A stretch of 45,323 nucleotides of DNA. Source: Deltaproteobacteria bacterium. GTDB taxonomy: Bacteria > Desulfobacterota > Syntrophobacteria > BM002. The translations under genes were made by a program, and so were the position numbers. The stretch spans positions 1 to 45,323 of the forward strand of contig JAFDGZ010000038.1 of NCBI GenBank assembly GCA_019309045.1, written 5' to 3'. The notes under the pieces were generated by a model. That model saw nothing but the letters and a program-made list of their open reading frames with translations, was not told where the DNA came from and ran no database searches. Below, one piece after another: positions 23,387 to 45,323 of the stretch; the first letter of the stretch is position 1; every line of letters starts with the position of its first letter.

Positions 23387-23452
23387 GCACCCAGTTTACT
23401 TGATCCTCAAGGATCGCCGATTGCAGCCAGCTCCTCGTGGCCTCCTCGACCG

Positions 23453-23645
23453 GTACTCAGGCAGGTCTTCTGGCTTCCCTGCCCCCCAGGCTGCCTTCCC
23501 ACCCCGCTTCAGCGAGACAGTGGCAACATGTTGCCAGGAGGGTTCCCTTTCCCTGAAGGAAAGAGCAGGGTTACAGCGGCGGGACCGCTCCCGATTTGCA
23601 CGGGATTCCCTATTGAGCCCAGATGGGCACCTGAGTTGTGAGTAT
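23453..23645 (-). promoter_or_regulatory. Cobalamin riboswitch
   Basis: The minus-strand leader holds the aptamer landmarks in order: CTCAGGTGCC (about 23635-23626), GGGAATCCCGTGCAAATC (about 23611-23594), GAGCGGTCCCGCCGCTGTAA with the J6/3-type core, and the closing GCCAGAAGACCTGCCTGAGT (23475-23456), the B12-box-like 3' element. Adenosylcobalamin or a related corrinoid would bind and favour the terminator at 23350-23386, shutting off the btu/tonB operon. Edges are approximate. Confidence 0.95.
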
Positions 23646-23652
23646 CCCTTTT

Positions 23653-40946: not shown

Positions 40947-41743
40947 GGGCAGAACTTCTCCACTACAGCACGAGATACCTGTAAATCTTGTTTGCTGAAC
41001 ACTTCCAGGGTGACCACTATGTCCCTGGCCTGGGCCAGGGAGAGCAGGCTGGAAAAGAGGGTGCTCATGATGTCATCCGGCGCTTCTCCAAGATCGCGGT
41101 GATCACGACCTGAGCGGATGCCATGCAGATGCACCACCCGGATGGATTTTCTGTAACGCTCGAGATAGCGCTGCAGAGGCTGCTTGTAGAGGATGACATG
41201 GCCCACATCGAGGCACACACTGAGGTGCAGACCATGGATAAGGTCTTCCACCAGATGAAAGGGATAATCGAGTGTTTCCACACAGATAAGTTCTGCAGAA
41301 ACTCCATGGTCGACAATGGTGCCGATCGAGAGGCTCAGATTATGAAGCCATTGAGAAATATTGTGCTCAGGCAGGCCCTGGAAATGGACGATGTAGCCAT
41401 GAGGCTTCAGTGGTGCAGTGGCAGTGATGGCCCGCAGACATTTGCCCACGGACTTGCTGCGGATGTCGGTGTCCAGGTCTCCGAGCTGGATATCCAGAGG
41501 AAGGTGAATCGTGTAGCTCAGGTCACACTGGTTGGCAATTGTTTTGAGTTGGCGAATTTCTTCCTGGCTGGGGTAGTTGGCCAACTCATCCGATTCAAAA
41601 AGAACAATTTCAATGTCGTCCACTTCAGAGGCGAGTTTGCAGACATTGGTGAGGATATCTGTTGGATAAATATATGATGTGGTGCCGAGTCGAAAGGGAA
41701 AACGTCGCGTTGCTGGGAAACTGCTGCTTACAGTCAAGGTCAT
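40943..41743 (-). CDS. cbiR: Cobamide-remodelling phosphodiesterase (CbiR), AP-endonuclease-2-like TIM barrel
   Basis: A 266-residue xylose-isomerase-like barrel. Metal-ligand positions appear in strand ends: IVLFESDELANYP, YTIHLPLDIQLGD, YIVHFQGLPEHN, ICVETLDYPFHLVEDL, VCLDVGHVI, VVHLHGIRSGRDHRDLGEAP and VVTLEVFSKQDL. This is the pattern of CbiR, which hydrolyses the nucleotide-loop phosphoester of cobamides to yield an alpha-riboside plus cobinamide phosphate, so that cells can replace a foreign lower ligand. It overlaps cobO and cobU by 4 bp each. Placement between an adenosyltransferase and CobU strongly supports remodelling. The catalytic activity itself is inferred from family and context. 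Confidence 0.88.
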   Translation of the reverse strand: MTLTVSSSFPATRRFPFRLGTTSYIYPTDILTNVCKLASEVDDIEIVLFESDELANYPSQEEIRQLKTIANQCDLSYTIHLPLDIQLGDLDTDIRSKSVGKCLRAITATAPLKPHGYIVHFQGLPEHNISQWLHNLSLSIGTIVDHGVSAELICVETLDYPFHLVEDLIHGLHLSVCLDVGHVILYKQPLQRYLERYRKSIRVVHLHGIRSGRDHRDLGEAPDDIMSTLFSSLLSLAQARDIVVTLEVFSKQDLQVSRAVVEKFCP

Positions 41744-42255
41744 TTTTCCACGCCGGTCCTGGCAGCTACTCCCTGTTGGAAGTAATGTTTGACTTCCTGC
41801 ATTTCTGTAACGAGATCAGCTCTGGCTATCAGGGCAGGATGTGCGTGGCGGCCGGTAAAGACCAGTTCCACCTGCTGCGGCCGGAGGTCTACGAGTTCGA
41901 TGAGTTGCTCCACACGCACAAGGCCAAGATGTGCAGCCACATTTGCTTCGTCGAGAATTACCAGCCGATAGGTGCCGGAAGTGAGGGCTTTGGTGACCTG
42001 CCCGAGGGCCGCTTGGGCCTGGTGACGATCCCTGTCAGAAGGTTCCCCCTGGATGAAGCCGGGTTTGCCGAAGGTCTCTATGGTGAGGAGATCTGAGAAC
42101 CTGGCCAGGGCAAGGTGCTCACTGTACTGACCACTCTTGAGAAACTGCCCCAGATACACCTTCCAGCCAGCGCCGAGAGCGCGAATGGCCAGGCCTATGG
42201 CAGCGCAAGTCTTTCCCTTGCCATTGCCGGTATAGATATGGACATAGCCTATCAT
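41740..42255 (-). CDS. cobO: Corrinoid adenosyltransferase (CobO/BtuR)
   Basis: Adds the adenosyl upper ligand to cob(I)alamin or earlier corrinoids. The 171-residue protein has the P-loop YTGNGKGKTCAA (Thr16 closing the loop), AIRALGAGWKVYLGQFLK, YRLVILDEANVAAHLGLV (Walker B-like) and VELVFTGRHAHPALIARADLVTEM. The ATG at 42255 is the family start; the frame extends to 42291. It overlaps the cbiR start by 4 bp, opening the salvage operon. Confidence 0.94.
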   Translation of the reverse strand: MIGYVHIYTGNGKGKTCAAIGLAIRALGAGWKVYLGQFLKSGQYSEHLALARFSDLLTIETFGKPGFIQGEPSDRDRHQAQAALGQVTKALTSGTYRLVILDEANVAAHLGLVRVEQLIELVDLRPQQVELVFTGRHAHPALIARADLVTEMQEVKHYFQQGVAARTGVEK

Positions 42256-42350
42256 TTCAGGAGAGCCCTCATGGCAGTCAGTAAGCCGCACACTTACTGC
42301 GAAGACCAGCCTCTTTGAGGTGCCTGTCCTCTGGAGGGAGAGGTAACCTT

Positions 42351-42894: not shown

Positions 42895-43800
42895 CTACGA
42901 GCCAAAATATTTTAGTTGGAGGTTACTCAAGGTTTGCAGGTAATCTTCACTATAGAGGAGGTCATTGCGACTCTGAACACCACTGAACAAAATAGGCAGG
43001 AAAAAGCGAAGATCGATGCCCTCCTCATTGAGGCTGTGTTCATTTGCCTGGTGTACTGCCAGAACAGAATAGTACATGGTCAACAAGGCGATCTTCGAGT
43101 CCCGCCTGATCAGATAAGAATGCCCTCCCAGGGTCTGAAGAAAGAAGCCAGCATAGCGGTAAAGAAATTTGAGACTTTCGGCAGAATCGCCTAAATCACC
43201 ACATTTACGTATGAGCCAGTGATAGAGCGTACCCATCAGAGGTTCGGCCAAATCTGCCTCTGAGTTTATTATGTCCCGGATCACGGCAATTTTTTTCTGC
43301 CGCAATAGCCGGAAAAAGAAAAAACTGTTTTGCAGAAGAATTGGCGCGCGATAGGCTTCGCCGCTGATGGTGGGCTTATGGCGATCCAGGCTGGCGAGTA
43401 TGCCAGTAAAAAAGGGCCAGCTGTCCTGCGATATTCCATGAGTTTTGAGTGCTTGGTTGCCATCTAGATACCTGCAGAAACTGCGCAGGGTATCCTCAAG
43501 TTGCTGACAATCCAACCGTTGGGGTGAGCGTCCCTGGGCTATGGGTGAATTTGGCCCAAAGACCTCGGTGAACCTGGCGGTTGGAAGCAGCTGCTTCTGG
43601 GGCTGCTGTTGTTGAATAGGCTGCTTCTGGCTGAGCAACTTCTGCAACTCCTGGATGCGCTCAGTACACTTCTGCTGCTCCGCTACTACTGCCTTGCGGG
43701 TGAACCTTTCATAGATAGGATCCCACTTCCACCAGAGAATGGCGGCGAGGGCACCTACGATCAGAACCACAAATAGAAACGCTCCGCATCCTCTTTTCAT
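42895..43800 (-). CDS. Membrane-anchored hypothetical protein with Q-rich coiled coil
   Basis: A 301-residue protein not recognised. The N-terminus is a signal-anchor (CGAFLFVVLIVGALAAILWW, residues 5-24). A Gln-rich, coiled-coil-like linker follows (residues 40-70, LLSQKQPIQQQQPQKQLLP). A helical globular domain of about 200 residues contains LDCQQLEDTLRSFCRYLDG and several aromatic-rich helices (SFFFFRLLRQKK). The topology suggests a periplasmic domain held at the inner membrane. No signature of a peptidase, transferase or receptor is visible. A start Shine-Dalgarno is weak. Confidence 0.75.
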   Translation of the reverse strand: MKRGCGAFLFVVLIVGALAAILWWKWDPIYERFTRKAVVAEQQKCTERIQELQKLLSQKQPIQQQQPQKQLLPTARFTEVFGPNSPIAQGRSPQRLDCQQLEDTLRSFCRYLDGNQALKTHGISQDSWPFFTGILASLDRHKPTISGEAYRAPILLQNSFFFFRLLRQKKIAVIRDIINSEADLAEPLMGTLYHWLIRKCGDLGDSAESLKFLYRYAGFFLQTLGGHSYLIRRDSKIALLTMYYSVLAVHQANEHSLNEEGIDLRFFLPILFSGVQSRNDLLYSEDYLQTLSNLQLKYFGS

Positions 43801-44071
43801 AGTGTTTTCTCTAGATTTGTTGTTAGCTGTCAGTTAAAGAACAGTCGTTTCTACTTTCGCAGTTGCTTATCATTTTTTATGGCGAAAATCTACCCCGGAT
43901 ATGGTGGTATACTTTTTGTTTGTTTTCCTTTATTACAGAAAGAAGAGGGCTATCGCAAAACTTCTGCTTTGCAGAAACTGACAAGTTGCTTATATCATGA
44001 CTATTTATAAGTCTGATTTGCTCGAGAATTTCTTCTAGGAAAAGGTGCCCTGAGTGTGCTAAAATAAGCTA

Positions 44072-44230
44072 ACCCCGATAAGCCGCGTGGGTGACTCGGT
44101 CCCAGGAAGGCCAACCTATTACTCCGCTTACGCTTTTGGGTAAGGCCAGTTGAAATCCAGAAACAACTGGAAGGGACGCTAGGTGGCGGTGGACTGAGCG
44201 GCGCGAAGGTTTGTCGGGGCGCCTTTTTGT
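44072..44230 (+). ncRNA. Candidate structured RNA of unassigned class
   Basis: In a 478 bp gap without genes (43801-44278), about 150 nt are closed by a long-range helix. Bases 44073-44084 pair with 44208-44219 (12 pairs, two G-T). 44085-44088 pair with 44201-44204, and CTCGGTCC (44095-44102) pairs with GGACTGAG (44191-44198). Inside, CTTAC/GTAAG (about 44127-44144) and CCAGTTG/CAACTGG (44146-44170) form two hairpins. A T run (44224-44228) follows the 3' strand, so the plus strand fits a transcript. TAAAAT (44060-44065) is a weak -10. The closing helix and length recall 6S RNA, but no diagnostic consensus was seen. It is convergent with the AsmA-like gene. Confidence 0.5.
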
Positions 44231-44278
44231 TGCCGGCTGGTATGGCAGGCTGGTTACCTGGCCATGTGGGCAAGGGTC

Positions 44279-45323
44279 TCATTCAACCAGTTTCTGTAAA
44301 TCCTGGTTTATTTCTTGCTGCTGTTTTTCCCTGCCTGGTGGTTCGGGGACCACATTGGCTTGCGGTCTCTGCACACTTTCCTTCTCTGCTGCCTCTCTAT
44401 GTTTTCTGAGCCACAATTCATTTATAGTGTAAACAGGCTTCTCCATTGTTCCAACAATCTCGACTGGCAGGGTTACAAAATTCTGGGGGTCTGTGATCTG
44501 GGGGAGAAGAGGTCTGATTTCCGTCAATTTTCCGGCATATTGCACAGGAAAACGCAGGTTCATCTCAAGAGCGAGCCTTCTATCAAGCAAGCTTGCAGTA
44601 CCCCTGCCCTCACCACTGAGAACCGGGCCCTGCAGGATGAGGTCCTGGACTATAACCTGGCCCCTTCTTATAAGGAGTCGGGCAGTGACCCGTGGAAAGG
44701 CCAATTGTTGAAAATCTTCGCTTTGGAAAAACTCGACTAGTTGTTGCACTAGTGGGTGCCCGGTGAATAGCGCCTCTTCCAGAACAATATCTGCCTGAGA
44801 ATTCAAATGAGCAACATCAGGGCTGCTGCCAGTGGCTGTTGCCTGCAAGGTCATATTTCCTGACATCGACTTGCTGAGATGAGGGGCAATATCCTTCATC
44901 ATCTCATCCAACAGAACGTCTTTGACAGTCAGCTTCGTTTGGAAGGGAGGACCGATCTGTTTTAGATCAGCTCCTAGAGTCGAGTGAAGCTCTCCACCGT
45001 ATACCCTGGCGTCGAGAGTGTCGATATCGAGCTTCCCCTTTTGCAGGGTGAAATGGCAGTTTACTTTGTTGGCAACGAATTTTTTGTAGTAGAGCCACTC
45101 AACGTTTATCGTTCCCACGGCGTCGAAACCTGGAGCCATACCTGTAGACCATACTGGCGCTGCCTCATGCAGAGGTGGCTCAGCTGGCTGCGATGGAGCG
45201 GTTTCTTCCGAAAGTGGCGTGCCAGTGGTGGAAGGAGGAAAAGATTCTTGCGTCAATGAATCTGCAGTTTCCTGGGTATCGAGCAGCTGTTCAGAGGTGG
45301 ATTCGGAAGAAAAGACCTCAGTA
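44279..45323 (-). CDS. AsmA-like C-terminal domain protein, partial (5' end outside window)
   Basis: The frame is open from the right edge to the stop at 44279, so the start lies outside. Visible residues begin with a Ser/Glu/Pro-rich linker, then a beta-rich domain: YYKKFVANKVNCHFTLQKGKLDIDTLDARVYGGEL, SKSMSGNMTLQATATG, RVTARLLIRRGQVIVQDLIL, then LPVEIVGTMEKPVYTINELW. Repeated strand-turn units with GxL.. and Y.G...  are typical of the AsmA-like family, which lies in the envelope and is linked to lipid transport to, or assembly of, the outer membrane. The extreme C-terminus is Gln/Lys-rich. Which subfamily it is cannot be told without the missing part. Confidence 0.75.
   Translation of the reverse strand, partial: TEVFSSESTSEQLLDTQETADSLTQESFPPSTTGTPLSEETAPSQPAEPPLHEAAPVWSTGMAPGFDAVGTINVEWLYYKKFVANKVNCHFTLQKGKLDIDTLDARVYGGELHSTLGADLKQIGPPFQTKLTVKDVLLDEMMKDIAPHLSKSMSGNMTLQATATGSSPDVAHLNSQADIVLEEALFTGHPLVQQLVEFFQSEDFQQLAFPRVTARLLIRRGQVIVQDLILQGPVLSGEGRGTASLLDRRLALEMNLRFPVQYAGKLTEIRPLLPQITDPQNFVTLPVEIVGTMEKPVYTINELWLRKHREAAEKESVQRPQANVVPEPPGREKQQQEINQDLQKLVE

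Follow-up and report, generated by a model that had tools for sequence, protein, structure and literature searches.

Positions 44072–44229 almost certainly encode a real structured small RNA, and comparison of related genomes indicates that it is new, uncatalogued, non-coding and restricted to one lineage. The window, which is the whole 45,323-nt stretch of DNA that was analysed, holds this gene in a 478-nt intergenic gap, with the gene orf301 on one side and an ORF for an AsmA-like protein on the other (Table 1). On the + strand of the window, no gene lies downstream of the RNA. Two covariance models, R1 and R2, cover the locus over their full length (model positions 1–160 of 160), with scores of 165.2 and 159.8 bits, respectively, and homologues in other genomes are 158–161 nt long.

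A sequence-only reading of this DNA had proposed a structured RNA in a gap with no gene, closed by a long helix and spanning 150 nt. The structured RNA was borne out and lies on the + strand between orf301 and the AsmA-like ORF. The long closing helix also stood, and the length was corrected to ~158 nt. What emerges is an RNA family that is well supported, uncatalogued and covarying in structure, in a lineage that is poorly studied and mostly uncultured. In addition, the covariance model means that the RNA can be annotated directly in new genomes.

Table 1. Features of the RNA locus, its neighbours and related sites (window positions unless a genome is named)
Feature	Position	Strand	Remarks
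Structured small RNA gene	44072–44229	+	~158 nt predicted transcript; covariance models R1/R2
Extended −10 promoter-like box, TGCTAAAAT	44057–44065	+	from upstream alignment
Closing helix	44072–44084/44208–44220	+	12–13 bp; nearly all pairs kept in 11/11
4-bp helix	44086–44089/44202–44205	+	
8-bp covarying helix	44095–44102/44191–44198	+	both-side changes at 5/8 pairs
Distal domain	44111–44186	+	7-bp helix, 3-bp helix, three-way junction with two hairpins
7-bp helix	44111–44118/44180–44186	+	one bulge
3-bp helix	44123–44125/44174–44176	+	
Hairpin, 5 bp	44127–44131/44140–44144	+	
Hairpin, 7 bp	44146–44152/44164–44170	+	stem sequence-invariant in 11/11
Closing-helix 3' strand and T-rich tail	44208–44229	+	intrinsic-terminator-like 3' end, from sequence
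T run	44225–44229	+	
orf301	42895–43800	−	orphan protein; divergent neighbour
AsmA-like protein gene	44279–45322	−	Pfam PF05170; runs off window; converges on RNA
Selenocysteine tRNA	1373–1467	−	
Cobalamin riboswitch	23443–23649	−	
BtuR/CobO-type corrinoid adenosyltransferase gene	41740–42291	−	
6S paralogue sites	G005:C1:174354, 1336164, 2735364; also G001, G006, G008, G010, G011		loci L075–L078, L091–L096

Secondary structure and covariation

The predicted fold consists of a closing helix and a rod of helices leading to a three-way junction that bears two hairpins and forms the tip of the molecule. Internal loops are small (8/4 nt). All of the elements seen in the sequence-only reading, namely a 12-bp closing helix, further helices, two inner hairpins and a T run, were located in the + strand. 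In the window copy, the closing helix comprises 12 canonical pairs (44073–44084/44208–44219) with an unpaired A–C outermost. Two wobbles in this helix (U–G and G–U) are unchanged in 11/11 sequences, which would be odd if pairing alone mattered. The distal domain is the best-conserved part of the RNA and the UCC in hairpin loop 44153–44163 is invariant among the 11 sequences. Overall, mean conservation is 0.94 for paired columns versus 0.81 for unpaired ones. A pseudoknot between GGGG of the 5' internal loop and UCCC of the hairpin loop was considered and found to be unsupported, pairing in only 86% of cells.

When the window copy is folded by itself with padding, it is only mildly more stable than its shuffles (z −1.8). 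With exact ends, the + strand gives z values of −2.1 to −4.4 in 11/11 intact homologues, and the − strand is weaker in all of them but L011. As the stability of a single copy is modest, stability alone would not settle the structure and it is the comparison of homologues that does so.

Homologues and covariation, both of which the sequence-only reading had suggested looking for, were found, with pairs covarying beyond what is produced by shuffles, slid pairings or a tree-based null. Standard pairs occupy 98.8% of 517 pair cells (11 intact sequences, 47 pairs), a count that leans towards the specified structure because R1 was built on a hand-specified structure and alignment A7 was fitted to R1. 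Both sides have changed at 9/47 pairs in these sequences: five in the 8-bp helix, two in the closing helix (its two outer pairs), one in the 7-bp helix and one in hairpin 44127–44144. Neither the observed pairing level nor the double-change counts were reached by any of 500 shuffles, and when partners are slid by 1–3 columns, pairing falls to 34–43% of cells. The tree-based null, in which columns are independent and the observed number of changes is placed on the tree, averages 93.0% paired cells and 2.0 double-change pairs, and the observed values are reached in 0/2000 simulations. The 3-bp helix and hairpin 44146–44170 never vary among the 11 sequences; they are conserved, yet covariation says nothing about either. 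Further support for the pairing comes from alignment A5, which comprises six sequences aligned free of structure and already has every pair except the outermost A–C of the window copy. Individual minimum-energy folds recover 42–46 of the 47 consensus pairs in 9/11 sequences.

We rejected a protein-coding origin. Although one frame of the − strand stays open in 10/11 copies, variable columns are spread over the codon phases as 17/15/15, which is no periodicity, and the length changes among homologues break the frames. Together, these properties indicate that the RNA is non-coding.

Distribution among genomes

Model R1 places the RNA, as a single copy, in 12/13 genomes of the order, with one of these copies disrupted, and R2 gave no match in the 43 remaining genomes of the class. 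At the DNA level, a search of 60 related genomes gave strong matches in 11 of the family's 12 other members, and elsewhere only weak, chance-level matches. The intact homologues are 74–80% identical and there is one per genome. Within the order, the RNA is missing from a single genome, which is 75% complete and comes from a different genus.

In a phylum sample of 297 genomes, the R1 matches comprised two members of the order and a single locus in a distant family (L043), which is no more than a terminator hairpin similar to the closing helix; scans of more than 40 genomes were run with stricter filters, so that very diverged copies could escape. Scanning 84,980 named species genomes for an exact pattern gave 12 records. 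Eleven of them are MAGs that carry the names Deltaproteobacteria, Desulfobacterota, Syntrophobacterales or Desulfobacteraceae (BM002); the remaining one, an Oscillospiraceae bin, matches by chance, at 9 bits. Searches of phages, plasmids and viral contigs gave no match to the RNA. Judged by these sequence searches, the RNA is specific to one order of Desulfobacterota among the genomes examined, an order that may be GTDB order BM002 of class Syntrophobacteria. Its near-universal presence there is what one would expect of a core cellular RNA, but no homologue was detected outside the order, so that it is a clean example of a lineage-restricted structured RNA.

The disrupted copy (L012 in genome G011, 1491–1637) retains an intact 3' half, with the 5' half and the promoter region replaced by unrelated sequence, and orf301 still adjoins it. 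The loss of the 5' half is either a real rearrangement, in which case the RNA is dispensable in that genome, or a MAG assembly fault.

Comparison with known RNA classes

No family in Rfam 15 matches the RNA region at gathering thresholds. At E≤10, nothing plausible appears within 43950–44300, where two snoRNA-like chance matches lie upstream of the RNA, and the loci of six relatives gave chance matches only, all of them outside the RNA. This outcome supports the earlier description of a new or divergent RNA, probably a free-standing regulator. The view that it is not tmRNA, SRP RNA, RNase P RNA or a riboswitch held up as well: tmRNA, RNase P RNA and SRP RNA were each found above cut-off elsewhere in this genome. 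A riboswitch or cis leader was rejected since both neighbours are on the − strand and the RNA, on the + strand, ends facing the AsmA-like gene. A catalogued aptamer was likewise rejected, there being no Rfam match at the RNA, and the cobalamin riboswitch of the window lies elsewhere.

Bacterial Y RNAs, the partners of Ro60 (Rsr), resemble the RNA in having ends closed by a long stem and a structured head. Unlike them, the RNA comes without a detected Ro60 partner and has no Rfam match. The Ro60/TROVE protein was found in 0/13 genomes of the order, with one control genome positive, and this negative result led us to reject Y RNA identity. Hfq was also found in 0/13 genomes by a search that was positive in five controls and that a diverged Hfq could escape; an Hfq-dependent trans-acting sRNA was rejected because Hfq was not detected among the 13 genomes.

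Orphan structured motifs (PMC2864571, PMC11109978) are similar in that they are intergenic, GC-rich, covarying and narrowly distributed. Many of these are cis leaders, whereas the RNA has no same-strand downstream gene in the window. The motifs described include orphans with 3–6 representatives, one of which comes from two Desulfobacteraceae genera (PMC11109978). No orphan motif catalogued in Rfam matches the RNA, and no paper on sRNAs of this lineage came up in a literature search.

Transcription signals and neighbouring genes

The RNA looks like an independent transcription unit, as a conserved promoter-like box precedes it and its closing helix is followed by a T-rich tail. The box has the consensus TGnTARRAT, recurs in all of the upstream regions displayed and is better conserved than any other block ahead of the RNA. 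Its end lies 6–7 nt from the closing helix in most copies. No promoter is called by a standard sigma-70 two-hexamer scan, and the −35 region is weak. The T-rich tail is present in most copies and varies in strength. As it is weak in some relatives (L010 and L006), the 3' end might come from processing.

The gene orf301 occurs in 12/56 genomes of the class, which are exactly the 12 that carry the RNA. A single locus inherited vertically within one order may be all that lies behind this shared distribution. The orf301 protein has an N-terminal hydrophobic, membrane-anchor-like segment and a predicted helical domain. It has no Pfam match and its predicted structure (pLDDT 72, moderate confidence) gave no significant fold match. 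The AsmA-like gene neighbours the RNA in most relatives, as seen by tblastn synteny.

Proposed function and alternatives

The best explanation overall is that of an independently transcribed, stable sRNA acting as a protein-bound ribonucleoprotein, for which confidence and doubt are evenly balanced. The narrower statement that the RNA works mainly by binding a protein stands at, or slightly short of, that balance. Here, transcription would start near 44072 and stop after the closing helix, and the sealed ends would make the RNA long-lived. A protein would recognise the sequence-invariant junction and hairpin 44146–44170, and would in turn be sequestered or scaffolded by the RNA. Both 6S and SRP RNA act through a bound protein and provide the analogy for this mechanism. 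Paired positions are more conserved than unpaired ones, yet the 7-bp hairpin stem is invariant, which suggests recognition of a shaped core and not of an exposed seed. A more specific proposal is that of a new class of ribonucleoprotein RNA, confined to one order, with a dedicated partner at the invariant junction and possibly working with orf301; it is unlikely.

Antisense action is the commonest function of free-standing bacterial sRNAs, and the RNA could be a trans-acting regulator of this kind, in which a conserved loop (e.g. the UCC-containing 44153–44163) pairs with mRNAs and alters their translation or decay. The invariant UCC would make a possible base-pairing seed. However, no Hfq was found in the order, conservation is on average lower at unpaired than at paired positions and no consistent pairing was seen with the start region of orf301 in a duplex test that is crude and has unrealistic energies. 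The near-invariant core, the sealed ends, the less-conserved unpaired positions and the lack of a detected Hfq favour protein binding over seed-based antisense, so that the latter is possible but rather doubtful. A cis role, either on the divergent orf301 or, as antisense to its 3' end, on the AsmA-like gene, is quite improbable. It would fit the linkage to orf301, which stays beside the RNA in three genera and shares its distribution, and the AsmA-like stop codon that falls inside the 3' tail of the RNA in L006. Against this, the RNA and orf301 are on opposite strands, 271–549 nt apart, a different downstream gene replaces the AsmA-like gene in G002 (L011) while the RNA stays, and both the structure and the covariation are properties of the + strand RNA.

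The sequence-only reading had also allowed for 6S RNA (SsrS, RF00013), and the corresponding alternative is a second, divergent RNA of the 6S type, which would bind RNA polymerase via a promoter-like bubble. The two RNAs are of the same size class, are rods with paired 5' and 3' ends and come from stand-alone genes; the RNA has its own promoter-like box, and relatives in the order carry two or three 6S paralogues. However, RF00013 gives no score at the RNA even at E≤10. The genome has its own 6S gene elsewhere, at 92.9 bits, 6S is present in 12/13 genomes of the order and R2 matches none of the 6S loci. In addition, 6S RNA has a large central bubble and a single terminal hairpin, whereas the RNA has small internal loops and a three-way junction at its tip. 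The 6S assignment was consequently abandoned, and a divergent 6S-type RNA is very improbable. The reading as a protein-bound ribonucleoprotein is the one that we prefer.

A separate observation concerns 6S RNA itself. Where several genomes of the order carry more than one 6S gene, the canonical copies score 69–93 bits and the further copies ~28–59 bits, and the latter are clearly alignable with the canonical copy.
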